Of a stretch of 35,460 nt of DNA, positions 4,409 to 22,700 are shown in pieces. The notes below the pieces were generated by a model. The model was not told where the DNA came from. It saw nothing but the letters and a program-made list of their open reading frames with translations, and did not search any database. The number at the start of each line of letters is the position of its first letter. Position 1 is the stretch's first letter. The stretch comes from a virus. A program made the position numbers and the translations under genes. Where the stretch lies: positions 1 to 35,460 of IMG/VR virus record IMGVR_UViG_3300047476_001355, one strand, 5' to 3'.

Positions 4409-4624
4409 ATGCCAACACAAATAACTATAAATGATGTAACTGGTGTAACTCCATATAACGTTTATCTATGTGATGAACCAATAACTACTTGTGTTTATAT
4501 TGATACCGTAAATTCATTACCTTACGATTTTATGATTCCGTCTCCACTAGATGGTCAGTTGAGTTACAATATAAAAATTATTGATGGTAATGAGTGTGAA
4601 ATAATAAAAAATTTAACTTTATAA
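4409..4624 (+). CDS. Small virion-associated protein, paralogue of the gene at 6256
   Basis: 71 aa. The central pattern VTPYNVYLCDEPITTCVYID matches YPYEVYVCNSYGGDCVYVST in the protein at 6256-6570: Y-x-V-Y-[LV]-C, six residues, C-V-Y. Both probably form a small beta domain, possibly held by a disulphide between the two cysteines. It starts the plus-strand fibre block and is separated from the 542-aa gene by 3 nt. No signal peptide is evident. A role as a fibre-associated or decoration module is inferred from location only. Confidence 0.65.
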   Translation: MPTQITINDVTGVTPYNVYLCDEPITTCVYIDTVNSLPYDFMIPSPLDGQLSYNIKIIDGNECEIIKNLTL

Positions 4625-4627
4625 AAG

Positions 4628-6256
4628 ATGCCAGTATATCAAATACAAAATACAGGTCTTTCAACATATGTAGGTTTTAGTTTTACAGATATTCTTTTAT
4701 CTCCAAAAGTTTTTGATTTACAACCATCGGTTTATTATTACATAAATGCGGCTGGGTCGGTTACTTCACCGTCACCAGATGTTGTAGTGACTTACGTTGA
4801 GAAAGAATTATCAGTTTTTGAATTTTCGGGGTGTTGTAATGGTGAAAGATTTGCAATAGTTTTTAGCGTTGAAAACTTTAACGATTTTTCGATAGGTGAC
4901 ACTTTATATTTTAACGAATTAATTTCATCTTTAAACCCAAATCAAGAACTTAATGGTTGTTTTCAAATTATTAATTCAGGCAGTACATCGGCGTTACCTT
5001 ATTTTACGATTTTATCATCCGATAATTACAGATTAAGTACATCATATACTAATTGCACTAATTGTTTGACATCGTTTCCGTGTTCATCAGGGTCATCTTG
5101 TGAGGAAACTTATTGTCTTAGTGGCACCGATACATCATTCGATGATTTATACTATAGTGCGGGTACATATAATTCTCAATTATATTGGTCAGGTAGTTCT
5201 AACGGAATGTTTATCTATTATTCTACAAGTTTTAGTCAATGGTGTTTATCAACAACTTTAGGCGGTTCTTGTTTATTGTCAGGTAAATCACCTTGTTTTT
5301 CTAATTGTCCCGATTTATGTAGTGAATATTTTAATTCAGGTATATGTCCAACACCAACACCGACTCCAACTCAACATTGTGATGTTTTTGATTTTAGTGC
5401 GTTGTTTGAATGCGAGGTTAGCGTAACTTCAACCCCCACCCCAACTCCAACTTCAACACCAACCCCCACTCCAACTACCGTAATTAATCTATGTGAAAAT
5501 TTAGATATTGATGCAACCATAGAAGGTATTACCAGTACTCCTACGCCAACCCCTACACCAACTCCAACACCTACTTCGGTTATTACAAGACCTTGTAGTA
5601 TTTTGGGTGATGTAAAATTTACAACAATAAATGGTGACATTTCTTGTCCTGTTAGTAAAAAATTTCAAGATTGTATAAATGGAATGTTTTATTATACTTC
5701 AGAATCGGTTCCAACACCAATGGGTTCTCCTTTAGAAGAATTTATGATTTTCAAATCTGTAGTTGATGGTGAATCTAGATGTATTTCATTTGTTGGTATT
5801 GTAACTGAAATTATTGGTGTTAATGATATTACTTTAGTAGAAGGTCCTTTGGGTTATTCAAACCAAGGTCAGTGTGTCGAATGTGTCCCTGATTACACTC
5901 CAACACCTACACCTAGTTTGACTCCAACATTAACCCCTACATACACTCCGACCCCAACTCCGTCATTACATCAACAATTTTATGTTTACCTTGATTGTGA
6001 AAAAATAAAGACTATAGGTAAAACAGGGACTATCGAGGTTTCTAAATTTTTAATTCAAACATATCCAGGACCTACTTTAACTTCAAATCAAATATTTTAT
6101 GATGGTTCATGTTGGTCTTTCTACGGTATTTACCCGACTTATCCATCATTACCTCCAGGGTCTTCAATAATAAATTATACAGGTAACTATTTTTCTTCGT
6201 TAACGAATCCAACATTCTACAGTGACTGTAAAACTTGTTTAAATAATTATTATTAA
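4628..6256 (+). CDS. Modular Thr-Pro-rich tail fibre/adhesin-like protein
   Basis: 542 aa. Globular beta-rich segments are separated by four Thr-Pro tracts at residues 241-248, 268-284, 303-317 and 423-445. Cysteines are frequent between tracts. Residues about 161-218 form a module with a YYSAGTYNSQLYWSG start, a FIYYSTSFSQWCLS core and a GGSC end; it is similar in layout to residues 285-345 of the 638-aa protein. No enzymatic motif is visible. The tracts probably act as extended, possibly glycosylated linkers between binding domains, as in mucin-like stalks. Context (fibre block, coupled TAATG to the next gene) suggests a virion surface or tail-fibre component. The exact role is inferred. 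Confidence 0.75.
   Translation: MPVYQIQNTGLSTYVGFSFTDILLSPKVFDLQPSVYYYINAAGSVTSPSPDVVVTYVEKELSVFEFSGCCNGERFAIVFSVENFNDFSIGDTLYFNELISSLNPNQELNGCFQIINSGSTSALPYFTILSSDNYRLSTSYTNCTNCLTSFPCSSGSSCEETYCLSGTDTSFDDLYYSAGTYNSQLYWSGSSNGMFIYYSTSFSQWCLSTTLGGSCLLSGKSPCFSNCPDLCSEYFNSGICPTPTPTPTQHCDVFDFSALFECEVSVTSTPTPTPTSTPTPTPTTVINLCENLDIDATIEGITSTPTPTPTPTPTPTSVITRPCSILGDVKFTTINGDISCPVSKKFQDCINGMFYYTSESVPTPMGSPLEEFMIFKSVVDGESRCISFVGIVTEIIGVNDITLVEGPLGYSNQGQCVECVPDYTPTPTPSLTPTLTPTYTPTPTPSLHQQFYVYLDCEKIKTIGKTGTIEVSKFLIQTYPGPTLTSNQIFYDGSCWSFYGIYPTYPSLPPGSSIINYTGNYFSSLTNPTFYSDCKTCLNNYY
5348..5578 (+). repeat. Three Thr-Pro repeat tracts (542-aa protein)
   Basis: Hexanucleotide-like repeats of the ACNCCN type encode alternating Thr-Pro at 5348-5371, 5429-5479 and 5534-5578. 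Codon third positions vary, indicating protein-level selection with some DNA-level slippage potential. Confidence 0.85.
5894..5962 (+). repeat. Fourth Thr-Pro tract (542-aa protein)
   Basis: Encodes residues 423-445 with the pattern TPTPTPSLTPTLTPTYTPTP, a Thr-Pro tract interrupted by Ser-Leu and Tyr. Confidence 0.8.
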
Positions 6257-6570
6257 TGACAGGTATTGATATAACATCGATAATTGGCTCTGACTATCCA
6301 TATGAAGTTTACGTATGTAATTCTTATGGTGGTGATTGTGTTTATGTATCAACGATAAACACAACAGTTGCCCCACCTGTCATAATATCTCCGTTACCGA
6401 TTGTATTCAATAACATTCCTAAAATAGGAATAATGATTAAATCATTATCAACAGGTTGTATGACATTTAAATCGATTACCTGTGAATCTATTAAAGTTGA
6501 TGATAAGGAATTTCAAGATGGTGAATTATTTTCATTTATGGATTCAATCCCATATGATTTCCAAACTTAA
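6256..6570 (+). CDS. Small virion-associated protein, paralogue of the gene at 4409
   Basis: 104 aa. It shares the YxVY[LV]C...CVY[IV]xT[IV]N core with the 71-aa protein at 4409 and extends it with a hydrophobic proline-rich stretch (VAPPVIISPLPIVF) and an acidic C-terminal tail (DDKEFQDGELFSFMDS). The ATG overlaps the upstream stop in TAATG, so it is translated with the 542-aa protein. The two paralogues flank the 542-aa gene, which suggests duplication of a module that works with it. Function unknown. Confidence 0.65.
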   Translation: MTGIDITSIIGSDYPYEVYVCNSYGGDCVYVSTINTTVAPPVIISPLPIVFNNIPKIGIMIKSLSTGCMTFKSITCESIKVDDKEFQDGELFSFMDSIPYDFQT

Positions 6571-6578
6571 TAACCAAG

Positions 6579-6586
6579 TATTTATT
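6579..6586 (+). promoter_or_regulatory. TATTTATT promoter-like box
   Basis: One-base variant of TATTTATA, 13 nt upstream of the ATG at 6600, in the 29-nt gap after the 104-aa gene. Confidence 0.35.
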
Positions 6587-6599
6587 ATAAAAAAACAAA

Positions 6600-7454
6600 A
6601 TGGGTTTTCTTACTGACAGAGCATGGATTACGGGTATTACTAAAACTAATTTATTTCACGTTGTTGATGTGAATGACACATCTCAAGGTAATCCAGATGG
6701 TTCATCATATAAGGGTTCTGTAGACCAATTTATAGTATTGTTAAATACAGAATTTGTAAAATTAACAGGTGATACAATGACAGGTCCTTTGTCATTACCA
6801 AGTTTAACCGCAAATACCGCTCATACAGGGACGTTGGTTATTACCTCAACACCATCTACTGATACTCAATTAGGTACGGAATATTTAACAAGAGATTCTT
6901 TAACAGGTGAGGTTAAAATTAAACAAATTCCAGGTCCAACGGTATACGGTTTATTCGCACAAACAGGTAATAGTGCCGTTGTTAGTGCAACAACAGTTGA
7001 ATCTTCCATAATTGATGGGGGTGTTGGTACCTTAACGGTACCCTCAAATGGATTTACTGTTGGGGATAGTTTCAGAGCGGATTTTGGTGGTCTTCTTTCA
7101 GTTAAAGGTGGTGGTGATACTCTTAGGGTTAAAATTAAATCGGGTAGTGTTATTTTATCTGATTCTGGAATAATATCAGTGAATTCGGTAACGGATGGTG
7201 TATGGCAAATGAATATTAATTTTACAATTAGACAAATTGGTGGTGCGGGTGTTGCGTCAATTGTAACATTGGGAAATTTTCATAATATGCAAACTTCAGG
7301 GGGGTCTCAAGAAGGGTTTGGGTTTAACACTGTTAATAATACTACTTTTGACACAACTTCACCTAACGTTTTGGACGTTACAGTTCAATGGGGAAGTACT
7401 AGTGCGGCTAATAAAATATATTCAGATATATTTATTTTAAACAAAATATTTTAA
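6600..7454 (+). CDS. Tail-fibre-like protein with GDTMTG motif
   Basis: 284 aa. VKLTGDTMTGPLSLPSL (53-69) is the GDTMTGxL element common in phage tail fibres, where it marks a fibre repeat or trimeric shaft. The N-terminal MGFLTDRAWITGITKTNLFHVVDV may attach it to the virion. From about residue 115 the sequence is glycine- and beta-rich and ends KIYSDIFILNKIF, consistent with a C-terminal jelly-roll type receptor-binding or capping domain (fold is inference). It has no Thr-Pro tract. Its stop codon overlaps that of the convergent minus-strand gene in a TTAA. Confidence 0.75.
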   Translation: MGFLTDRAWITGITKTNLFHVVDVNDTSQGNPDGSSYKGSVDQFIVLLNTEFVKLTGDTMTGPLSLPSLTANTAHTGTLVITSTPSTDTQLGTEYLTRDSLTGEVKIKQIPGPTVYGLFAQTGNSAVVSATTVESSIIDGGVGTLTVPSNGFTVGDSFRADFGGLLSVKGGGDTLRVKIKSGSVILSDSGIISVNSVTDGVWQMNINFTIRQIGGAGVASIVTLGNFHNMQTSGGSQEGFGFNTVNNTTFDTTSPNVLDVTVQWGSTSAANKIYSDIFILNKIF

Positions 7455-7627
7455 TCTTTAGGATTGGTTTTTCCTACGTTATCGTATAATTTCATAAGTC
7501 TTCTAGTTTCTCTTAGATTCTTTTCAAGTCTATCTAACTCCTTCTCACTCACACCTTTTTCACATGCTTCATCATAAGCTTTTTGTGATTCAACGACTAA
7601 TTTTGAAATTGTTTTAAGTAGTTTCAT
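7451..7627 (-). CDS. Small helical protein, unknown function
   Basis: 58 aa from the ATG at 7627. The frame can be extended to a TTG at 7648, but the ATG is preferred because an exact TATTTATA box lies 5 nt upstream, as at other unit starts. The protein is charged and helical (KLVVESQKAYDEACEKGVSE, then EKELDRLEKNLRETRRLMKL), likely a short coiled coil. It is the only minus-strand gene inside the fibre block. It could be a regulator or assembly factor; nothing decides this. Confidence 0.55.
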   Translation of the reverse strand: MKLLKTISKLVVESQKAYDEACEKGVSEKELDRLEKNLRETRRLMKLYDNVGKTNPKD

Positions 7628-7632
7628 ACATC

Positions 7633-7640
7633 TATAAATA
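7633..7640 (-). promoter_or_regulatory. TATTTATA box 5 nt before the 58-aa gene
   Basis: Minus-strand reading TATTTATA-GATGT-ATG. On the plus strand the same bases read TATAAATA, identical to the T4 late promoter core; that orientation would fire toward the glycosyltransferase gene at 7701, so a role in either direction cannot be excluded. Confidence 0.5.
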
Positions 7641-7700
7641 TATCCCAAAACACCATTTATTACAAATGTTTCTTTTCTATATTTAATTTTATATAGTATT

Positions 7701-8681
7701 ATGGAGGAAAAATTATTATTTGTTACCGCTCAACCTGATGTACCATATTTTCATTGGCAGGTTAGGGTTTATGTTCAGAATTTTACAGATTTAGGTATTA
7801 ACCCTAAAAATATACATGTTATTTTTGGGATGGTTCAAGGTAATTCTGAACCAACTAAAGAATCATTAGAATTAAAGGATTTGGGTATAAATGTTCATCA
7901 TTATTTAGATGATAGAAAAGAAAAAAAATATATCCCGAGTATTAAACCTTTTTTAGTTTATAAATGGTTAGAAGAATTCCCTGAAAATGGTAAATTATTT
8001 TTCTTACATGACGCGGATATTATTTTTAGGGAATTACCTGACTTTAATAAATTAATTAATGATGACATAATTTATGTGTCTGATACAATAGGTTACATTG
8101 GTTACGATTATATCATGGACTGTTGTAATAGATATGAAACTAATCATCCATCATCAAATAAAGGTCAATTGATTGAAGAAATGTCAGAAGTCATTGGGTT
8201 ATCGGTCGATACTATTAAAGAAAATCAAAATAACTCAGGCGGGGGTCAATATATTATAAAAAACACCCCATGGGAATTGTGGTTTAAAATCTATTATGAC
8301 TGTGTTCCATTATACAATCAAATGTTAGATTATCATAAAAGATTTCCAATAAGTCCAGGTGAGATACAATTTTGGACCGCGGAAATGTGGTCATTATTAT
8401 GGAATCTTTGGTTTTTTGGTTTTGAAACTAAAATATCTGATGAGTTAGATTTTTCTTGGGCGACGGATACTATTAAAATATACGAACAAAGACCTATATT
8501 ACATATGGCAGGAGTTACTCAAGATTTAAAAGATAAAAAATTTTTCAAAGGAGATTATATTAATGTAAACCCATTGGGAAAATTAAAGGAGGATATTAAC
8601 TTTTTCGAATACATTGATGAGAATAGTGCAACAAGAAAATACATTGATGTGATGAAAAAAATAATAAAATTTCAGTCGTAA
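7701..8681 (+). CDS. Putative GT-A-type glycosyltransferase
   Basis: 326 aa. The protein opens with a Rossmann-like strand (KLLFVTAQPDVPYFHWQVRV), continues through NIHVIFGM, and carries a DxD signature D104-A-D106 in KLFFLHDADIIFR, the metal/nucleotide-sugar site of GT-A enzymes. Further elements are NNSGGGQYIIKNTPWELWFK (about 176-195) and a late RPILHMAGV segment, which together resemble the peptidyl Ser/hydroxyproline glycosyltransferase-like group (SERGT/HPAT type) in motif order; that subgroup is tentative. It has no membrane segment, so it would act in the host cytoplasm. Placement between genes for Thr-Pro-rich fibre proteins suggests those proteins as substrates; host surface glycans or phage DNA are alternatives. 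Confidence 0.65.
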   Translation: MEEKLLFVTAQPDVPYFHWQVRVYVQNFTDLGINPKNIHVIFGMVQGNSEPTKESLELKDLGINVHHYLDDRKEKKYIPSIKPFLVYKWLEEFPENGKLFFLHDADIIFRELPDFNKLINDDIIYVSDTIGYIGYDYIMDCCNRYETNHPSSNKGQLIEEMSEVIGLSVDTIKENQNNSGGGQYIIKNTPWELWFKIYYDCVPLYNQMLDYHKRFPISPGEIQFWTAEMWSLLWNLWFFGFETKISDELDFSWATDTIKIYEQRPILHMAGVTQDLKDKKFFKGDYINVNPLGKLKEDINFFEYIDENSATRKYIDVMKKIIKFQS

Positions 8682-8683
8682 TG

Positions 8684-8691
8684 TATTTATA
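8684..8691 (+). promoter_or_regulatory. TATTTATA box 4 nt before the 638-aa gene
   Basis: Exact TATTTATA followed by ATAA and the ATG at 8696. The gap of four bases is the same as at 10639, 32734 and (variant box) 4329. If it is a -10 element the transcript would be leaderless or nearly so. Confidence 0.55.
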
Positions 8692-8695
8692 ATAA

Positions 8696-10612
8696 ATGGC
8701 TTGTTCAATATATCAACTTTCTTTCGGTGTATCACCGTCATCAACATATTCATTTGTTGATTGTTTTTCTAATACAATAACTTTTTCACCTGTACCTAGT
8801 AGTACATATATGTGTTGGGCAGACGATTCAACCCCTCCACCACCATCTACCGATTTAAATATTTATCAAGGTACTTTAAATTCCCCATCATATTTAAGAT
8901 TCGATGATTGTTGTGGTAAATTTTCAGGTTTAATTTATTTAGATAATATTGTATCATACCCTTATGTTTTTAGTAGTGATTTAATAATTACAACGAATGG
9001 TCAAATTATTAGTGAAACTAGTGACATTTGTCTTTCATGGAACAATACAGGTTCAACGTCAGGAATAGAATACATTAGTCTATATAAATTACCTTCAGAT
9101 TACTACGAAGGTAATTCATGTTCTGAATGTATATCCGACCAACCATGTGTTACACCAACACCGACACCGACTCTTACACCAACTCCAACCCCAACACCAA
9201 CACCGACACCATTTCCACCTATAAGACCATCATTCAACAATGAATGTGACCCTATAACATTATTCCCTATGGGTGTGTCTTGTTCTGTAGTTCATCCTTC
9301 ACCTTATTCATCTGATGGTGTTGCGTCTTTAATTATTACAGGAGGTACACCACCTTACTTTATAAGTTGGGAAAATGGTAATATATCTCCAATTATTTAT
9401 AATTTAAGTGCAGGTTCTTATGGTGCAACTATAATAGACTCTTATGGTGATTTTACCGCAAATACTACTTGTGTATTAACAGGTTCAACACCAACACCTA
9501 GTATGACACCAACACCAACACCAACACCTCCATATTTAGAATATGACTTATGTATGGTTACTAACTTGTTAACTCACGGTTCATATACTGAAACACAAAC
9601 TGATTTTTATCCAAATGGTTTAGTTAATTCAAGACCATCATGGATTTCTGACGATTCAAGTCAATTGATATATTGGGATAACGTAATATCTCAATGGAAA
9701 GTGTCGGCATCAACTCCTACAACATATGTGATAACTAACTCAAATCCAACTTATCCACCAATTTATGGTGGTTGGTTTATTATTGGTGGAACAGGTAGTG
9801 TGATTGTTTACGAAGGTCCATGTAATGAAGGTTTAATTTCCGAAATGAAGTTCTCTGAATCATCACCTTTTAGTATTGAGAATCCTCAACCATTAGTTAT
9901 AACCACAACTAAAAATCAAACAATATGTGGTTGTGATGGTGGTATAACAGTTTCTGCAAAAGGTGGTACTCCTCCTTATTCATATTCAATAAATGGGGGG
10001 TTAACCTTTAGAAATATTCCAATTTTTACTAATTTATGTTCAGGTACATATAATTTAATTGTGAGTGATTATGAGGGTAAAATTGTTAGTGAAAATATTG
10101 TATTAAATCCTCCGTCATCACCGACAACTTATAATGTGAAATTAGTTACAATACCAACAACTATAGAAGCTAATTCAGAAGTATTAACTAAAGAATATGT
10201 TACAACTTTATCTATAAGTCCTCAATTACCAGATGGTGCAAATATTTCGTTTAACTTGAATCATTTAAACTTATCCAAGAGTTCACCTAATAAAGATTCA
10301 TCATCAACTAAGGTAAATTCCATTTTAATTGTAGATGATGTTGAGTATAAAATTACGTCATCAAACGAATCTAATGATAGGGTAATTAACACTATTGCAG
10401 GTTGTCAATCGGAATATATTTATACAACTTCATTATCCGAATATTGGGGTCCGATTGTAATTAATAATACCTCAACTTTAAAATTAGTAACATACACTAG
10501 TGTTATAAGGAATGAGTCGGTAAACTGTTATGTGGGTACTAGTGATGACACATACACAATAACTAATTTAAAAATAACAGGTTGTAATTGTTGTTCAGTA
10601 ATACAATCATAA
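8696..10612 (+). CDS. Thr-Pro-rich fibre/adhesin-like protein with SprB-type repeats
   Basis: 638 aa. Order of parts: Cys-containing N-terminal beta region (1-150), Thr-Pro tract (153-172), an SprB-like repeat (about 195-262, ITGGTPPYFISWENG then LSAGSYGATIIDSYGD), a second Thr-Pro tract (264-278), a module shared with the 542-aa protein (285-345, SSQLIYWDNVISQWKVS), a second SprB-like repeat (about 400-472, GGTPPYSYSINGG then CSGTYNLIVSDYEGK), and a beta-rich C-terminal domain ending in CNCCSVIQS. SprB repeats are known from the Flavobacterium gliding adhesin. The combination suggests an extended virion surface adhesin or receptor-binding fibre. Function is inferred from domains and context. 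Confidence 0.75.
   Translation: MACSIYQLSFGVSPSSTYSFVDCFSNTITFSPVPSSTYMCWADDSTPPPPSTDLNIYQGTLNSPSYLRFDDCCGKFSGLIYLDNIVSYPYVFSSDLIITTNGQIISETSDICLSWNNTGSTSGIEYISLYKLPSDYYEGNSCSECISDQPCVTPTPTPTLTPTPTPTPTPTPFPPIRPSFNNECDPITLFPMGVSCSVVHPSPYSSDGVASLIITGGTPPYFISWENGNISPIIYNLSAGSYGATIIDSYGDFTANTTCVLTGSTPTPSMTPTPTPTPPYLEYDLCMVTNLLTHGSYTETQTDFYPNGLVNSRPSWISDDSSQLIYWDNVISQWKVSASTPTTYVITNSNPTYPPIYGGWFIIGGTGSVIVYEGPCNEGLISEMKFSESSPFSIENPQPLVITTTKNQTICGCDGGITVSAKGGTPPYSYSINGGLTFRNIPIFTNLCSGTYNLIVSDYEGKIVSENIVLNPPSSPTTYNVKLVTIPTTIEANSEVLTKEYVTTLSISPQLPDGANISFNLNHLNLSKSSPNKDSSSTKVNSILIVDDVEYKITSSNESNDRVINTIAGCQSEYIYTTSLSEYWGPIVINNTSTLKLVTYTSVIRNESVNCYVGTSDDTYTITNLKITGCNCCSVIQS
9149..9211 (+). repeat. Thr-Pro tract (638-aa protein, first)
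   Basis: ACNCCN-type repeats encoding almost pure alternating Thr-Pro over residues 152-172. Confidence 0.85.
9485..9529 (+). repeat. Thr-Pro tract (638-aa protein, second)
   Basis: Encodes residues 264-278 (STPTPSMTPTPTPTP), directly after the first SprB-like repeat. Confidence 0.8.
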
Positions 10613-10626
10613 AAATTAAAAACGAA

Positions 10627-10634
10627 TATTTATA
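10627..10634 (+). promoter_or_regulatory. TATTTATA box 4 nt before the 844-aa gene
   Basis: Exact TATTTATA followed by GTCA and the ATG at 10639, the same spacing as at 8696 and 32734. Confidence 0.55.
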
Positions 10635-10638
10635 GTCA

Positions 10639-13173
10639 ATGGGTTATATAATTAAAAATACTTCAGGGTTAATAAACACAAGATTAACCGACACTGGAAG
10701 ACAAAAATTGTCTCAAGGTAATTTTAATATTTCTTATTTCCAAGTAGGTGATAGTGAAGTATCGTATAATACTTTACCAACATCCTATAATCAATTTGAT
10801 ACTATGATACTTGAGCCTGATTTTAACGCTCAAAATTCAAGTGGGGCCCCTCAGTCAAATAAAGAAAATGTAAAATACCCATATTATGTAGACGGTTTAA
10901 CAGGTAATACCTATGGAGTTCCTTTTATGGATTCGATTGTTAGTCCTGTTTATAATAGAGCCGTAATGAGAGGTTTTTTCACTGGAAACACAAGTGCAAG
11001 TACTATTAATTGGAGCGCGATGACGAATAACTTTTACGCAATAAATGCGGATTATGTTATTAAAATGAATACTTTAAATGGTACTTCAACTATACCTCCT
11101 TTACTATCACCTTCAACAACTAATCCTGTTAGAGAACCATCAGTAGGTGATATAGTTACCATATATTTTGATGGTAAAGGTATGTATAATAATTCTTGTT
11201 CAAATCTACCTTCACCAACACCTACCCCAACTTCAACAGTTACTCCTTCGGTAAGTTCAAGTTCAGGGTCAAATCCGACTCCAACACCAACACCTTCGGC
11301 AACATTTACTTGTGAAACACCAACTCCAACACCAACACCTTCGGCAACATTTTGTCCAACACCAACACCTAGTAGAGCTTGTCCTCCTCCACCTCCTCCG
11401 AATTGTTTAATGTCATTAAACAGTTGTTATTCAGTTTTAACTTATAGAATAACCTCGGTATGTTTAGGTGAGATTACTTTAGACAGACCAACACCTGATT
11501 TTAGTAATTTATCTTACGAATGTTATGCTAGAATGATTGTTTATCCACCTAATATGCAAACCATTTATGATAGTATTACTCCAAGTCGTCATTGGAATGA
11601 TAATGTTATTAACTTCGAATCAGTTTGTTACACAGATGAATTTGATGTTAAAGTTTGGAATATGAATATTCCGTGGTCTGAAAATCCAGCAGGGTTGTAT
11701 TCGTCAGTAAGTAAGGATTACACTAATTTTGGTTCAAAACAATATTTAGGGAGTAAAGAATATTTTGGTTACGCCTCAAGTAGTGGTCAAACCGATACTA
11801 GTTCGACTTACTATAATAACTCATTCGGTGATGTAGTTACTGTAACACCTGAAGAACAAAAAGCAATCGCTATTATTCATTATACCAACCAAACAGTTGA
11901 TTTATTCTACGGTGAAAAATTTGCGTTAGAACCTTTTGATGAATCAAATCCTTCAGATACTACAGGTCAAGCAAGAAATTTTAAATTACACATTCCTTGG
12001 TTAATGTGGCATAAAAATCCTGAATGTTGTTTTGGTGAAACATTTTGGGTTGACCCTCCTGAATTTGAGGACCTTGACCTATTTAAGGTTCATTATCTTC
12101 AATCAACTAAAAATAGTGACATGAATTCACCAGGGATTCGTTATTACCATCTATGGGATACTCATAGAAATGTTAATAATATACCAAGTAGAATTGGTAA
12201 GGTATTCCCTGATTCTAAAATAGTAATCATTGATGATGAAGAGATTATTGCTTCAATGTCATATAAATCAAATAGGAACTGGACTTTACCCGCTCCAAGG
12301 GTGTCTTTAGTTACTCCTAACACTTGTGGTAATGATAATACATCGGTATCAGGTGTTTTAACAGGGGCGTCTCAATATATGCACGTAACTTATAGATTAT
12401 CAAATACCTCTACATTTACGAATTCTTTACATTGTAACTATTATTCAGTAATACAAGGACCTAATATTGAGTGTTTACCTTTAACTTCTCAAAATGTTGC
12501 GGTTAGATTTGGTGGTGATTTTAGTTGTTTGAGACCTACGTATAGTCCAACAACAACAACTACCACATATATACCATATACTACAACAACAACATCTACA
12601 TACGAACCAATTGTTGGTACAACAACAACAATATGTCCTGATGTGTGTGATGTAGTCTCAGGATTTTATGCTGATAAATTTGAGGTAATCTGTCAGAAAG
12701 TTGATGGTAATGGTAGACCTAATTCATCTGAGTGGAAGATAATAGATTTTACTGACCAAATTTCAAATCTATTAGTAAATGGTTATATAACTGAAGAAGC
12801 TATTACAGGGTCAACATTTGTAATTACAGATGAAGAATATGAAAATGCCCCATCATATAATTTAAACGATTATATTCCATTAACACCAGCAGGTTATACA
12901 GGGTCGTCTTTAAATTTTGGTGATGAGTATTATTTCTACGGTTCATTAGAAACTGATATTGAAGCAACTATTTACGAAATGAGGTATAAAATTAATTTAA
13001 GTCAAGCAGAATTCTTATCATCCTCAAATCCGTCATGGACTCCAGGTACCTCATCATACGTTTCTGAAATTGGTCTTTACGATTCCAATAAAAATCTTAT
13101 GATTATATCAAAAATGCAGTCACCTGTATTAAGACAAGGTATTCAGCAATTTTTGATTAAATTCGATTTATAA
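10639..13173 (+). CDS. Large modular tail-fibre-like structural protein
   Basis: 844 aa. The N-terminus (IINTRLTDTGRQKLSQGNFN-type segment, residues 11-30, then ISYFQVGDSEVSY) looks like a conserved virion-attachment domain: the phrase TGRxKLSQGNxxISYFxxGDSE recurs, from memory, in phages of Bacteroidetes. A Thr-Pro/Ser and poly-Pro linker spans residues 191-257, and a poly-Thr linker lies at about 635-665 (runs of five or six Thr). Between them is a large domain rich in Trp and Tyr (about 260-630). The C-terminal 150 residues end IRQGIQQFLIKFDL-like. It is probably a long tail fibre or baseplate-attached collar protein. No enzyme motif is seen. Confidence 0.7.
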   Translation: MGYIIKNTSGLINTRLTDTGRQKLSQGNFNISYFQVGDSEVSYNTLPTSYNQFDTMILEPDFNAQNSSGAPQSNKENVKYPYYVDGLTGNTYGVPFMDSIVSPVYNRAVMRGFFTGNTSASTINWSAMTNNFYAINADYVIKMNTLNGTSTIPPLLSPSTTNPVREPSVGDIVTIYFDGKGMYNNSCSNLPSPTPTPTSTVTPSVSSSSGSNPTPTPTPSATFTCETPTPTPTPSATFCPTPTPSRACPPPPPPNCLMSLNSCYSVLTYRITSVCLGEITLDRPTPDFSNLSYECYARMIVYPPNMQTIYDSITPSRHWNDNVINFESVCYTDEFDVKVWNMNIPWSENPAGLYSSVSKDYTNFGSKQYLGSKEYFGYASSSGQTDTSSTYYNNSFGDVVTVTPEEQKAIAIIHYTNQTVDLFYGEKFALEPFDESNPSDTTGQARNFKLHIPWLMWHKNPECCFGETFWVDPPEFEDLDLFKVHYLQSTKNSDMNSPGIRYYHLWDTHRNVNNIPSRIGKVFPDSKIVIIDDEEIIASMSYKSNRNWTLPAPRVSLVTPNTCGNDNTSVSGVLTGASQYMHVTYRLSNTSTFTNSLHCNYYSVIQGPNIECLPLTSQNVAVRFGGDFSCLRPTYSPTTTTTTYIPYTTTTTSTYEPIVGTTTTICPDVCDVVSGFYADKFEVICQKVDGNGRPNSSEWKIIDFTDQISNLLVNGYITEEAITGSTFVITDEEYENAPSYNLNDYIPLTPAGYTGSSLNFGDEYYFYGSLETDIEATIYEMRYKINLSQAEFLSSSNPSWTPGTSSYVSEIGLYDSNKNLMIISKMQSPVLRQGIQQFLIKFDL
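11209..11409 (+). repeat. Thr-Pro/Ser and poly-Pro linker (844-aa protein)
   Basis: Encodes residues 191-257. Thr-Pro tracts alternate with Ser-rich spacers and end in a run of prolines (PPPPPP). It contains the exact direct repeat listed separately. Confidence 0.8.
11278..11352 (+). repeat. Exact 30-bp direct repeat, 45-bp period
   Basis: Copy 1 at 11278-11307 and copy 2 at 11323-11352 are identical (starting ACTCCAACACCAACACC and ending GGCAACATTT). The 45-bp offset equals 15 codons, so gain or loss of a unit stays in frame. Confidence 0.9.
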
Positions 13174-13175
13174 TT

Positions 13176-13775
13176 ATGAAAAAAAATATTAAGGAAAGCC
13201 CTAAGGTTTTAGGGTTAGATGTGTCAACTAAAACTATTGGGTGGGCGTTATTTGATATCGAAACTCAAGAGTTATTAGAATTAACACATGTTTCACCTGT
13301 TCCTAAACCTAAAGAGGAAAATAAGATAAAAGAGTTGATTCTAAAAAGTGGTATTTTTAGAAGTAAGTTAATTCAATACAAAGATTTGGGCATTACCAAA
13401 GTGATAATTGAGGAACCGTTATTAAATAGTAATAATATTTATACTATCCAAACATTAATGAGGTATAACACACTAATAACTAAGGAAATTTACGATGTTT
13501 TAGGTATTGTTCCTGATTATATCTCAACATACAATTCAAGAAAACTTGGGTTCCCTCATTTGGTTCAACAAAACGATAAAGGTAAATTTGTATTATTTGG
13601 TGGTTACCCTAAAGATTGTGATAAAAAACAAATCATATGGGAATTAGTCGCTAAAAGAGAACCTCAAATTACTTGGGCTTATACAAGAAATAATACCCTT
13701 AAAAAAGAAAATTTTGATATGACCGATGCTTATTGTTGTGTGTTAGGTTATATGAAACAAGAAAATATTTGGTAA
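13176..13775 (+). CDS. RuvC-fold Holliday junction resolvase-like nuclease
   Basis: 199 aa. RNase H-fold catalytic acidic residues are in RuvC order: D15 in VLGLDVSTKTIGWAL, E79/E80 in KVIIEEPLL, and D181/D184 in NFDMTDAYCCVLGY. The length fits RuvC-type resolvases. It would resolve branched replicative DNA before packaging, a job done in T4 by the unrelated endonuclease VII. It follows the 844-aa gene by 2 nt and ends the plus-strand block at a shared hairpin terminator, so it would be expressed with the late fibre genes, consistent with a packaging-linked role. The fold is well supported; resolvase specificity versus another RNase H-like activity is inferred. Confidence 0.8.
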   Translation: MKKNIKESPKVLGLDVSTKTIGWALFDIETQELLELTHVSPVPKPKEENKIKELILKSGIFRSKLIQYKDLGITKVIIEEPLLNSNNIYTIQTLMRYNTLITKEIYDVLGIVPDYISTYNSRKLGFPHLVQQNDKGKFVLFGGYPKDCDKKQIIWELVAKREPQITWAYTRNNTLKKENFDMTDAYCCVLGYMKQENIW

Positions 13776-13831: not shown

Positions 13832-16800
13832 TTATGTAGGATATTGCCAATTGAAGTATGGTTTATATGAACCTATAAATAATTCATTTTCATTACAACC
13901 AATAAAGACCCCTGTTTCAAGTAAGTTTAAGAATATTTCACCAATTTCTTGTTTAGTGTATGGTAGTGATTCTAATGAGTTAAACATACCACATAATGGA
14001 CTATTCCCATTTATTGTTGAGATTTCCATTAATCCTCCTAACTCAGCTAATGTATAATATAGACGAATGTCAATATATTTACTTTTTTCTAAAAATGGAT
14101 TAGGTGGTGGGGTTAATGAAAACATGGTGTTGGTTAAGTCAATAGTTTTAAATTCAAAATTAATAGTACTTGTAATTCCTGTATATCCACCAATATATTC
14201 ATAAAAATTCTCAATACATGGTTCAAAACTATCACAACATGCTTTAGGTAAAAAATCAATACCTAAATTAGTTAATTCAACATAAGCACCATATGAGTTT
14301 ATATCAAAGACATGATTTATACAACAGTCAGGTAAACCTAATACTTTAATTAAAAGACTAAAAGTTTTTAGATACCCTAAAAAATAAAAATTAGTATCAT
14401 AACAAGTAGTTGGGCAACAAAAAGTAAAATCCTCGTTAACAATGTCCATTATTAATCCATTATTTAATGTGGTAACCATATTTTTGATATAGTCGTTAAC
14501 ATCTAAATAAACAGGTAAAGTATTAAAGAAATACTCTAACGGATTTGTACATGCAGTGTATTCACATATATTGTCAATACATTCACTAACTTCAGTTACA
14601 GTTATACCACTACAATCTGCAATAGGTAAATCACCTCTATTTGTATAATCAATATATGAATAAAGTGACTTAACCGACCCTATATATACAGTATCGTTTT
14701 TACATTTTGATGTTAACCCAGAATTTAATAAGTAAACTAATATATCATACATATCAGTAGTAGTAATCCCAAAATTGGTTTGTGCATAATTTAAAGAATC
14801 AACTAAAGAACAAATATAACTAATATTAGTTTTTGTTGGGTTTTCCCCAAAACCATATAAGGTATACAAGTTGTTAAAATTAACTGTACCTATTAAATTT
14901 TCTAAATCTATTAAACAATTAATAAAATCACTTTCACAATTTTGGGGTATTTGACCAAAATCATTAATCATGTTTGTTATAAAATTATTATATGTTAGAG
15001 TACTTCCTGTATAATTATTACAACAAGATGGGAACTCACCTAATGTAAAATATATTCCGTGTAATGAACGTAGTGACATTAACCCATAAAAATTAGTTAT
15101 ATTTTTGTCATCGTCACATTCAGAACAACAAACTTTATTTGTTGCGTTTGTAACAACTATACCTCTTGTTAATAAGTCTTCTAAGTTGTCATAATAAGAC
15201 CCCATTGGGTTTTCGATATATTCAGAATTTAAGACTTTAAAGAAATAAGAAATAGGGTCGGTACAATCTTCATAACATGATGTTTCAATAATACTTCTAC
15301 CACAAATTTTATAATTTTGGGTACCATCTAAAGTTAAACTGTCAATATCTCCATTGCAGTCTTTATAAGTTACCACACAACCTTTAGGTCCTGACACATC
15401 ATAACAATAGCAAAAATCATCACAACTTTCACAATTTATATCGTATGATATATTTAATTCAACCTTAACATTGGCGTCTAACAAATATAAATTCGCTTCA
15501 CAACTACTGTTAATTATTAGTGTGTTCTTTATCGCATCGACAATAACTTCACCTATACCATCATAACTTAATAATAATTCTTCAACTACATTATAAAATT
15601 CATTGTCAGAAGGGAATTGTGTTAAAGTGTTACCAGTATAAAAATTTTGACTTTTTACAATACCATTTACCGTTGTAATAACTGTGAATATTGATTGATT
15701 TAAAATACAATTAGTGTCTCCTAATGTTAAATCATGGAACCCTTCAATCAACATTTGTTGAGGTCCTTTCTTATCCGTTTGGCCTGTTATTTCAAAATCA
15801 TCGTTACATATATTATAAACTTCATATGACGATAATTGATTAAATCCATTTATGGTTACTGTTCTTGTTTTAGTACATCCATTATCATCAACTACCATTA
15901 GACTATATGTCCCCGCACTTAAATTGTTAACGGTTAATCCTGTTTGTCCGTTGACATTAGGACTCCAAGTTAATGTAAATGGAGGTGTTCCATTGGTTAT
16001 AAGTGCAGTAATTGAGCCGTTGGTACCATTTAATGAATCAGTCCCAATTAAGACAAAATCAACTTCACTACTACTTGTGATAGTAAAAGGTAATACTTGT
16101 TGACAATAATTAGAATCTGTTACGGTTGCAACATAACTTCCAGGTGTTAAATTTTCAAATAGGTATTCAAAGTCGTTTGAAAAAACAGAATACCCGTCTA
16201 TTTCATAATGGAATGGAGGTGTACCACCAGGTGTAATGGTTAACATAACCGAACCTGTTGATTCATTACAAGTTGTACCTGTCGTCTCAACACTCAATTC
16301 AAATAATTCATTATTTTCAACAACATAAGTATTTTCAAAGACACAAGGACCGTTATCCGATATTTTTAAAGTGTATGTATCAGAAAATAAACCTGAAAAA
16401 GTCCAATTAGTAAATGACCCTGTAACAATTGTCTCATTACCTAAAGAGTCAGTTAAAGTATAAGTGTATAAAGGAGTTCCTCCTAATATTGTAACATCAA
16501 TAACCCCGCCATTTCCGCTACACGTTGAGTTAGTTACGTTAACTGACGTAACCGATAACCCTCCATCACTTAATAATGTTGTTGTAGCACTAAAGGTACA
16601 ATTACCCGCGTCGGTTACTACCACAGTAAAAAATCCTGCAGGTAAATTATAAAAAGTATTTGTATTACTAAATGTCGTATCGATGTGACCATTAGAACCC
16701 GCGTATTGGTACGGTGGTGTTCCTCCTGAAACGTTCACAGTTACGGTTCCGTCCGAACTAAAACAAGTTGGGTTAGTGTATGTTATATTTTCTAATCCTA

Positions 16801-17557
16801 TTAATGGTGCTGCGGTTATTGTAACACCAGAACTCTGTATACATCCTTGTCCGTCGGTTACCGTTATTGTATAATTACCAACTGTCAATCCCGTAATAGA
16901 TGTAGTTGTTTGTCCTCCTGGTGACCAAAGATAGCTATATGGTGGTGTTCCTGTAACTCCTGTTACATAAATTGCGCCTATATTTGGTTTACAAGACGAA
17001 GTAGGAACGGTAAATAACCCTATTGTAACCTCTTCAGAATCTTTTATTAAACATGTTTCAGTTTTTCCTGTACAACCTCCTCCATCGTCCGCAATAATAT
17101 AATATGTTCCTGTTGGTAAATTATCAAAGGGGTAAAAATTATTAAATGTCTCGCCTGAAGTAATAAACCCTAAATCATTTTCATATAGATAAAATTTCGC
17201 AACATTATATAAATTAGATGTTGTTGCAGTTATTCCTCCATTATCTAAACCACATGAAGTGTTCATCATAGACGTAACACTTACACAAGTTCCTGATGAA
17301 ATATTAACATTAACAGTTTGTATAGTATTAGACGGTGTACAACTATCAATAACATTAAAAGTATAAGTACCCGCACTTAATGAATCTATAGTGTATCCAT
17401 CAACACCAGGTCCTAACGGTATCGTTCCGTAAAGAGGATTAATCCAATCAACAGTATAATCAGGTGCGGTACCGTCAATAAAAATGGTAAATGCACCTGA
17501 GGATGTATTATAACAATCCCCTGTTATTCCTGCTATTGTCACATTTAATTCACACAT
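13832..17557 (-). CDS. Giant SprB-repeat virion/adhesin protein with duplicated Cys-rich module
   Basis: 1241 aa. Residues 1-570 hold about seven SprB-like beta repeats of 70-90 residues (about 1-90, 91-180, 183-250, 255-330, 335-415, 420-495, 497-570), with signatures GTPPYSYLWSPGG, LPAGFFTVVVTDAGNC and LSAGTYSLMVVDDNGC. Residues 575-760 form a linker domain. Residues about 765-970 and 1003-1236 are two diverged copies of a Cys-rich alpha/beta module: SYFFKVL/EYFFNTL, FPSCCNN/LPDCCIN and VYIGSVKSLYSYID/LFIGSYKPYFNWQY. No signal peptide is visible, so it is not a normal secreted protein. It is the last gene of the tail operon, coupled by TAATG to the 1006-aa gene. A tail-tip or fibre adhesin is most likely (inference). 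Confidence 0.8.
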   Translation of the reverse strand: MCELNVTIAGITGDCYNTSSGAFTIFIDGTAPDYTVDWINPLYGTIPLGPGVDGYTIDSLSAGTYTFNVIDSCTPSNTIQTVNVNISSGTCVSVTSMMNTSCGLDNGGITATTSNLYNVAKFYLYENDLGFITSGETFNNFYPFDNLPTGTYYIIADDGGGCTGKTETCLIKDSEEVTIGLFTVPTSSCKPNIGAIYVTGVTGTPPYSYLWSPGGQTTTSITGLTVGNYTITVTDGQGCIQSSGVTITAAPLIGLENITYTNPTCFSSDGTVTVNVSGGTPPYQYAGSNGHIDTTFSNTNTFYNLPAGFFTVVVTDAGNCTFSATTTLLSDGGLSVTSVNVTNSTCSGNGGVIDVTILGGTPLYTYTLTDSLGNETIVTGSFTNWTFSGLFSDTYTLKISDNGPCVFENTYVVENNELFELSVETTGTTCNESTGSVMLTITPGGTPPFHYEIDGYSVFSNDFEYLFENLTPGSYVATVTDSNYCQQVLPFTITSSSEVDFVLIGTDSLNGTNGSITALITNGTPPFTLTWSPNVNGQTGLTVNNLSAGTYSLMVVDDNGCTKTRTVTINGFNQLSSYEVYNICNDDFEITGQTDKKGPQQMLIEGFHDLTLGDTNCILNQSIFTVITTVNGIVKSQNFYTGNTLTQFPSDNEFYNVVEELLLSYDGIGEVIVDAIKNTLIINSSCEANLYLLDANVKVELNISYDINCESCDDFCYCYDVSGPKGCVVTYKDCNGDIDSLTLDGTQNYKICGRSIIETSCYEDCTDPISYFFKVLNSEYIENPMGSYYDNLEDLLTRGIVVTNATNKVCCSECDDDKNITNFYGLMSLRSLHGIYFTLGEFPSCCNNYTGSTLTYNNFITNMINDFGQIPQNCESDFINCLIDLENLIGTVNFNNLYTLYGFGENPTKTNISYICSLVDSLNYAQTNFGITTTDMYDILVYLLNSGLTSKCKNDTVYIGSVKSLYSYIDYTNRGDLPIADCSGITVTEVSECIDNICEYTACTNPLEYFFNTLPVYLDVNDYIKNMVTTLNNGLIMDIVNEDFTFCCPTTCYDTNFYFLGYLKTFSLLIKVLGLPDCCINHVFDINSYGAYVELTNLGIDFLPKACCDSFEPCIENFYEYIGGYTGITSTINFEFKTIDLTNTMFSLTPPPNPFLEKSKYIDIRLYYTLAELGGLMEISTINGNSPLCGMFNSLESLPYTKQEIGEIFLNLLETGVFIGCNENELFIGSYKPYFNWQYPT
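13850..15265 (-). repeat. Tandem duplicated Cys-rich module (coding)
   Basis: Encodes two diverged copies of about 205-235 residues (copy A near 14648-15265, copy B near 13850-14553) recognised by aligned CC pairs, a YFF start and an [YF]IGS[VY]K end. The copies are visible only at protein level. Confidence 0.7.
15848..17557 (-). repeat. SprB-type repeat array (coding)
   Basis: Encodes about seven repeats sharing [GT]G.PPY.Y near the start and AG.[YF]..VVTD..NC at the end. The repeats are strongly diverged from each other, so this is an old array rather than recent DNA amplification. Confidence 0.75.
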
Positions 17558-21515: not shown

Positions 21516-22700
21516 TTATGTTTTTATTACATTAAAAAACTTATATCCGTATTTTTCAAGGTCACCAACGTTATCCACCTCTCCAAGTCTTTGTATTCTT
21601 TCTAACGCAGAATTTTTACCTCTTTCAACATACACATTTGTTTGAACTTCGGGTTCATCAATAACATTTAATAATACCTCATTTTTAGTTATCGCTGAAC
21701 AGACCATCATATCAGGTGTCATACCTGATGAATATGTCATAAATACAGTTGTACCATCTTCATAATCATAATAATCAATGTCATTAATTGTATAGGCCGT
21801 GTATGTATTATCTGATGAAGGACCCCAAAAAGTACCAATACTTCCTGATGTTCCTGTAACCTGAACTCCGATTTTATATTTTCCACCATACATTAGTGGG
21901 TTGTACTTACTACCATATTGTTCTAAATCAGTTACTGTTGATTTAGTGTATCCCGTAATTAAAAATGGTACTGTGGTATAGTTATAACTTGATTGGTCAT
22001 ACACATCACAATTAGAATCCCCAGTGAATATATAATCATACATTAATGGAGTACCCGACCAACTACCACCCGCAGGTATAAAATAGGCAGTACCATTAGG
22101 GTTTGGTACTGTAACGCCTGTGAATGGTAGATATACCGTTTTTTCAACAACATTAGTCCCCCAAGGGCTCATACCTGAAAAAGTTATTGTAAATTCACCG
22201 TCTTGAGAATAAGTATGGGAATAAAAATTAGGTGCCGTGGATGTTATTAATTCAATTGGCGTTCCATCCCCCCAGTCCACTTCATACGTTGAGAATTGTA
22301 AATATTTTTTAAATTCAGTGTCTGAAGTATTATAAAAATAATAAGTATACGGTGAGAAGGTTGACGCTGAGAATAAAAAATTAGTCATCGTATCTTTTTG
22401 TAAAACCATACCATCAAACACAGAATAATATCCTATATCAACTGTTGTTTCGTCTAAAAATATTGGGATAGTTAACCCTGTTAATATCGAATACCCGTCA
22501 GTACCTCCACTTAATATTTGGGTCATAGACGAGTATGAATAAGTGTATCCTGTATATTGTTCAGTTGTTGTGGTAGTTGTTAACTCACAACAAGTATCGT
22601 CAAATATGGGTACTGAATTACCCGCGTTATACGGATGTACAAATAAATCATTACTTATAACTTCAGGCGATATTTTTATACTGTAGTATCTTTGTTCCAT
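21516..22700 (-). CDS. Tail-associated protein with a PKD-like domain
   Basis: 394 aa. A PKD-type beta-sandwich signature lies at about 137-195: YEVDWGDGTP (139-148), then FYSHTYSQDGEFTITFSG (159-176), matching the WxDG...HxY...GxYxVxL pattern. A poly-Thr stretch (41-46) acts as a linker near the N-terminus. The C-terminal VEQ/LERIQRLGEVDNVGDLEKYGYKFF region (about 368-390) is helical and may attach it to neighbours. PKD domains in phages usually decorate virions and bind glycans or proteins. It is coupled to the 267-aa gene by TAATG. Confidence 0.65.
   Translation of the reverse strand: MEQRYYSIKISPEVISNDLFVHPYNAGNSVPIFDDTCCELTTTTTTEQYTGYTYSYSSMTQILSGGTDGYSILTGLTIPIFLDETTVDIGYYSVFDGMVLQKDTMTNFLFSASTFSPYTYYFYNTSDTEFKKYLQFSTYEVDWGDGTPIELITSTAPNFYSHTYSQDGEFTITFSGMSPWGTNVVEKTVYLPFTGVTVPNPNGTAYFIPAGGSWSGTPLMYDYIFTGDSNCDVYDQSSYNYTTVPFLITGYTKSTVTDLEQYGSKYNPLMYGGKYKIGVQVTGTSGSIGTFWGPSSDNTYTAYTINDIDYYDYEDGTTVFMTYSSGMTPDMMVCSAITKNEVLLNVIDEPEVQTNVYVERGKNSALERIQRLGEVDNVGDLEKYGYKFFNVIKT

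Follow-up and report, generated by a model that had tools for sequence, protein, structure and literature searches.

What does a glycosyltransferase encoded among threonine-rich proteins in a phage genome modify? The question is raised by the window, by which we mean the whole stretch of DNA analyzed here, a linear IMG/VR fragment of 35,460 bases. To judge from its primase, SbcD-like, baseplate-wedge, and ribonucleotide reductase homologs, the window comes from a T4-like myovirus, and the SprB repeats found in its proteins suggest a Bacteroidota host. The whole analysis is one of sequence and predicted structure, and some of the records analyzed are fragments.

The glycosyltransferase and its threonine-rich neighbors

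A plus-strand block spanning positions 4409 to 13775 holds ORFs of 542, 638, and 844 amino acids (aa), with the glycosyltransferase (GT) ORF sitting between them. An earlier note had described these three as fiber proteins with Thr-Pro tracts, encoded in the same block as a DxD-type GT-A glycosyltransferase, and both the tracts and the enzyme are borne out. We counted 12 Thr-Pro runs (TP repeated three or more times). Six lie in the 542-aa ORF (4628 to 6256, plus strand), at 5348 to 5371, 5432 to 5452, 5456 to 5476, 5537 to 5575, 5897 to 5914, and 5945 to 5962. Three lie in the 638-aa ORF directly 3′ of the GT gene (8696 to 10612, plus strand), which also has SprB repeats, at 9152 to 9172, 9176 to 9211, and 9506 to 9529. 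The remaining three are found between 11215 and 11340 in the 844-aa virion-type protein (10639 to 13173, plus strand). Apart from SprB/Ig-like repeats, the family matches of the three ORFs are weak or of unknown function, and the label "fiber protein" is unproven for them.

The same block also contains oligo-Thr runs, which the earlier note passed over and which turned out to be the informative tracts. They form the segment PTTTTTTYIPYTTTTTSTYEPIVGTTTT of the 844-aa protein (12550 to 12630, plus strand), made up of TTTTTT at 12550 to 12567, TTTTT at 12580 to 12594, and TTTT at 12619 to 12630. On the basis of the association tests described below, we propose that these runs are glycosylation tags and that the 844-aa protein is the main GT substrate encoded in the window. 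A minus-strand ORF of 394 aa (21516 to 22700) carries an N-terminal TTTTTT (22563 to 22580) and is a possible second substrate. The tags of the window sit between domains, unlike the C-terminal tags of the Firmicutes phages described below.

Two neighboring ORFs were noted in passing. Directly 3′ of the 844-aa ORF lies a RuvC-like Holliday junction resolvase (13176 to 13775; weak match, E = 1.7e-5), and this pair of ORFs is also kept in relatives that lack the GT. Beyond it, a minus-strand ORF of 1,241 aa (13832 to 17557), with a Hoc-like match and SprB repeats (PF13573, E = 2e-18), probably encodes an adhesin or decoration protein of the Ig-like type.

The GT itself (7701 to 8681, plus strand; 326 aa) matches the profile of phrog_4417 over its full length (E = 9.8e-76, residues 7 to 321 of 326), a family annotated there as being of unknown function, with no proposed substrate. 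Its AlphaFold2 model (pLDDT 96.9, pTM 0.93) has a GT-A (Rossmann-like) fold. In an alignment of 73 homologs that are 28 to 79% identical to the window GT, the DxD motif (D104xD106) is invariant, as are Q183, H268, G271, and K283. When the model was compared with 1,000 PDB chains by VIA, 790 scored a Z of at least 8, and the best listed were all glycosyltransferases, the closest folds being glycogenin (Z = 15.4; 3.5 Å over 227 residues), LgtC (14.3), UGGT (14.0), and LARGE1 (13.5). GT8/GT24-type enzymes such as these four are retaining, and several act on proteins. They share with the window GT the GT-A fold, the DxD motif, and a C-terminal HxxG with a downstream Lys, a likeness that extends over 225 to 245 residues at Z scores of 13.5 to 15.4 and at only 7 to 11% sequence identity.

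Profile searches placed the enzyme less closely. No member of the 73-protein family matched PF01501 (GT8) at an E value of 0.01, one homolog matched the Nucleotid_trans profile (E of about 0.006), a search of NCBIfam profiles returned nothing useful, and no solved relative was found by sequence search; a phmmer match to 8vd6, a "CAP repeat" entry, was rejected as covering 22 residues. The kinship with peptidyl Ser/hydroxyproline glycosyltransferases suggested in the earlier note survives as a trace, a weak match to PF23452 (HPAT) in 1 of the 73 homologs (E = 0.006) and none in the window GT, while the fold points to GT8/GT24-type retaining enzymes instead. By profile and model, the window protein is thus classed as a predicted GT-A enzyme of its own family, placed in no curated family, and it is probably retaining and GT8-like, with the Z scores of GT8 glycogenin and GT24 UGGT lying within about 1 of each other. 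The Bacillaceae members of the family have an additional C-terminal segment of about 50 to 60 residues (ending in KKVSEERLKELSSSNNKAGRPLIKKVD; L240:8001-9077 and L229:8001-9080) that is missing from the window GT.

Threonine runs in phages with and without the glycosyltransferase

In 80 IMG/VR relatives of the window, the GT nearly always adjoins an ORF with Thr-Pro runs. As controls, we took loci picked via the 844-aa protein rather than via the GT, obtaining 20 GT-positive and 12 dereplicated GT-negative loci; the GT was absent from the whole records behind the latter. Thr-Pro runs were as common without the GT (11/12 loci) as with it (18/20; P = 1). Runs of at least five Thr residues (T5+; usually six or seven) were found in 19 of the 20 GT-positive loci versus 2 of the 12 GT-negative ones (P = 1e-5), and inside the 844-aa homolog proper the counts were 15/20 and 0/12. 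A T6 DNA pattern occurred in all 18 GT-positive whole records (157 hits in 2.29 Mb) versus 3 of 15 GT-negative records (4 hits in 2.32 Mb), and the reversed control pattern gave 115 and 73 hits, respectively; this ratio is indicative only, because the pattern disregards reading frame and some records are near-identical copies. A crude DxD motif scan revealed no substitute GT beside the 844-aa homolog in the GT-negative relatives.

Some relatives depart from the usual arrangement. In one environmental clade (L253, L254, L255, and L265), the GT lies more than 8 kb from any tract, which speaks against the pairing; these apparent counterexamples nevertheless proved to hold T6 to T7 tracts elsewhere in their records. 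In this clade, the GT is followed by a group of ORFs, mostly on the minus strand (L254:9141-16862), that by appearance resemble sugar/surface-metabolism genes. Four other loci (L266 to L269) have TTVKPTTVAPTT-like repeats in place of pure Thr runs, and a GT-less T4-like relative (L218:3-1517) encodes a long PSITATPSITATP repeat protein.

Members of the GT family, at 30 to 40% identity, also turn up in 31 Firmicutes genomes, every one of which encodes a T5+ protein near the GT, and in phages of Enterococcus, Lactococcus, Lactobacillus, Staphylococcus, and Chryseobacterium. In Firmicutes phages, the GT adjoins poly-Thr tags and not Thr-Pro fibers; occurrence without such fibers in relatives is what the earlier note had named as grounds for refuting its proposal. 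The tags are runs of six to nine Thr residues at the C terminus of the major tail protein and often also of the capsid and connector proteins. The major tail protein is the upstream neighbor of the GT in phages phiFL1A, 1706, and SA2, where it ends in TTTTTSTTTTTTSSTTTTTTTQASSK, TTTTTTTTTTHHD, and STTTTTTTTP, respectively; that of Enterococcus phage VPE25 ends in TTTDTTTTTTTTTTAGK. In Lactococcus phage 1706, the GT gene is orf14 and the tail protein is the product of orf13; the GT of phiFL1A is gp51. A Thr tag is likewise found at the end of the major capsid protein in Bacillaceae prophages, and often at that of a connector of about 105 aa.

Close relatives that differ in the GT differ in the tag as well. 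Among 16 homologous Bacillaceae regions, all seven with the GT have tags on two or three of the major capsid, connector, and major tail proteins, and all nine without it lack any T5+ ORF; relative to the tagged query, identity in these GT-negative homologs reaches 90% for the capsid proteins and 69% for the tail proteins. Staphylococcus phages SA2 and RQ1 and TPWB06, which is listed under Arcanobacterium, have both the GT and a poly-Thr major tail protein; SEP9, 6ec, and CF9, whose major tail protein core is 88% identical to that of SA2, have neither. Lacticaseibacillus phage R3.3 has GT and tag, and Lactobacillus phage Bassarid lacks both.

Two further features of these tail and capsid C termini were seen. 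In GT-positive Sextaecvirus-type phages, whose tail protein ends in TTTTTTTTP followed by a stop codon, an overlapping frame runs on for about 50 to 60 Thr-rich residues (L086:6117-6930, L704:2951-3653, and L705:2501-3263), an arrangement suggestive of extension by programmed frameshifting. In GT-less Bacillaceae prophages (L330 to L338), a different short C-terminal motif (such as GGVEG, EPEGA, or PAGV) is common to the capsid and tail proteins of a given phage, as though another shared tag had taken the place of the Thr run.

We mapped the GT and the tag onto trees of the tail proteins. In a tree of 33 proteins, the GT state changes seven times and the tag eight times, with 31 of the 33 rows concordant; in the two discordant rows, a T-rich protein of 113 to 119 aa adjoins the GT instead. 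In a second tree, of 23 proteins, each changes five times and all 23 rows are concordant. To judge from these trees, GT and tags are gained and lost together. Independent GT/tag pairs number four plus two on well-supported (starred) branches and seven plus five on all branches, with none opposed; the starred count is too small for significance inside one tree, and what carries the case is the repetition across groups.

The association was also approached from the side of the tracts, by scanning viral fragments for DNA patterns alone. The GT was present in 12 of 84 fragments with a T7+ pattern, 3 of 109 with (TP)4 (P = 0.005 versus T7+), and none of 53 with S7+ (P = 0.003 versus T7+). The enrichment among fragments picked by pattern indicates that the association is independent of the GT-based choice of loci and is specific to Thr runs. 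The other 72 T7+ fragments do not contain this particular GT within the fragment, and thus Thr runs by themselves do not predict the GT. The GT-less T7+ proteins may be served by other glycosyltransferases or be unmodified; other GT families were rare near these ORFs (GT25 once and TOD1/MUCI70 once). Seen from the GT, a T5+ ORF lies within 2.6 kb in 90 of 98 dereplicated loci, and the share of ORFs with T5+ falls with distance, from 31% within 300 bases to 21% up to 2.5 kb, 3% up to 5 kb, and 1.4% beyond 5 kb. Tract lengths in GT-positive loci peak at six.

What the enzyme would act on

That the phage's own GT modifies virion proteins, as the earlier note had supposed, is strongly supported by linkage and covariation in several unrelated phage groups; the part of that proposal that did not hold up is Thr-Pro as the substrate. 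We consider it very likely, from these associations and the modeled fold, that the GT-A enzyme O-glycosylates oligo-Thr tags on the phage's own virion proteins. It would move sugar onto the Thr hydroxyls of the tags during virion protein synthesis or assembly; both the activity and the acceptor hydroxyls are what we infer from sequence and model. In T4-like environmental phages, the tags, mostly of five to seven Thr residues, would link the domains of large fiber- or adhesin-type proteins; in Firmicutes phages, they would form the C-terminal ends of the major tail, major capsid, and connector proteins. The glycan would decorate the exterior of the particle, a role that Ig-like domains or other extensions at the C terminus may have in related phages, and the gain might be hydration, protease resistance, fiber spacing, or masking.

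The evidence for this is association, and it could also be read as GT and tags forming one module in which the GT acts elsewhere than on Thr side chains, either extending a glycan that a host enzyme has primed with the first sugar or modifying a neighboring residue. We regard this as unlikely, since the pairing is shared by Bacillota phages and by T4-like phages whose SprB repeats are of the Bacteroidota type, and both would then need a common host priming enzyme.

Glycosylation of the Thr-Pro tracts, with the oligo-Thr runs incidental, draws on the Thr-Pro ORFs found on either side of the GT, both in the window and in most close relatives. It is quite improbable given that such tracts are just as frequent in loci without the GT, that Firmicutes GT loci adjoin oligo-Thr tags, and that the pattern scan favors T7+ over (TP)4. 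Thr residues within Thr-Pro may be modified in addition.

Phage glycosyltransferases that act on host surface glycans or on phage DNA are common, and the enzyme might be one of these (for instance, in receptor or serotype conversion), its adjacency to tagged structural genes being a coincidence or the result of a shared mosaic module. We think this very unlikely, as it accounts neither for the presence of one and the same tag on three different virion proteins only where the GT is encoded nor for the recurrence of the pairing across unrelated phage groups.

Finally, although the tags are of low complexity and often directly beside the GT gene, we give almost no credence to the idea that they arose by DNA repeat expansion or as recombination scars and travel with it: at least two Thr codons are used in 537 of 538 tracts in GT-positive loci, and adjacent codons are identical at a rate of 0.317, versus 0.339 in within-tract shuffles, so that the mixed codons rule out a DNA microsatellite origin, and in Bacillaceae tags are also present some 2 kb from the GT gene, on the genes for capsid and connector.

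Returning to O-glycosylation of oligo-Thr tags, we think it likely that oligo-Thr serves as a portable sequon. On this reading, a single widespread family of phage GTs would recognize runs of about six Thr residues whether on capsid, tail tube, connector, or fiber linker, unrelated phages of Bacillota and Bacteroidota-type hosts would share the module, and virion glycosylation would be far commoner than the mycobacteriophage cases suggest.

Implications and known systems

To our knowledge, glycosylated phage virions have so far been recorded mainly in mycobacteriophages, and a limited literature search found no paper linking a phage GT with threonine runs, which does not in itself prove novelty. 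A readable tag tied to a so far unannotated GT family would make virion glycosylation predictable from the sequences of hundreds of phages, among them isolated phages of Enterococcus, Lactococcus, Lactobacillus, and Staphylococcus. The distribution of GT and tag supplies natural phage pairs with and without the system, and phrog_4417 would gain a testable function. A run of about six Thr residues and a soluble GT would also be a candidate minimal sequon and enzyme for bacterial protein glycosylation.

Several known systems invite comparison. The plant hydroxyproline/serine peptidyl glycosyltransferases HPAT and SERGT have an analogous task, glycosylating Ser/Thr/Hyp-rich tracts, whereas the proposed substrate tracts of the window system are Thr runs. 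Some phage tail and capsid proteins have a C-terminal extension, such as an Ig-like (BIG2) domain, which on the major tail protein occupies the position of the Thr tag (for instance, in the GT-less L308); it is a folded domain, in contrast to the oligo-Thr tail of GT-positive phages.

The nearest parallel is the O-glycosylation of the virions of mycobacteriophages Che8 and Rita, where phage-encoded glycosyltransferases and glycans at the C termini of capsid and tail-tube proteins are reported (Freeman et al. 2023, as described in PMC12619734 and PMC11256854). Modification has been shown experimentally in Che8 and Rita, whereas the phrog_4417 system is known here from sequence and predicted structure. 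Of the 74 hits that a tblastn search with the GT (E value of 1e-5) returned from 50,697 phage records, Che8 included, none was listed under Mycobacterium, and the Che8 major capsid and major tail proteins end in NKTGS and YSDGS, without a Thr run. Both systems have a phage-encoded GT. C-terminal oligo-Thr tags on major capsid and major tail proteins are seen in the Firmicutes relatives and are absent from Che8, and the tags of the window are interdomain. As judged from sequence, the phrog_4417 system differs from the mycobacteriophage one in GT family, in tag, and in spread.
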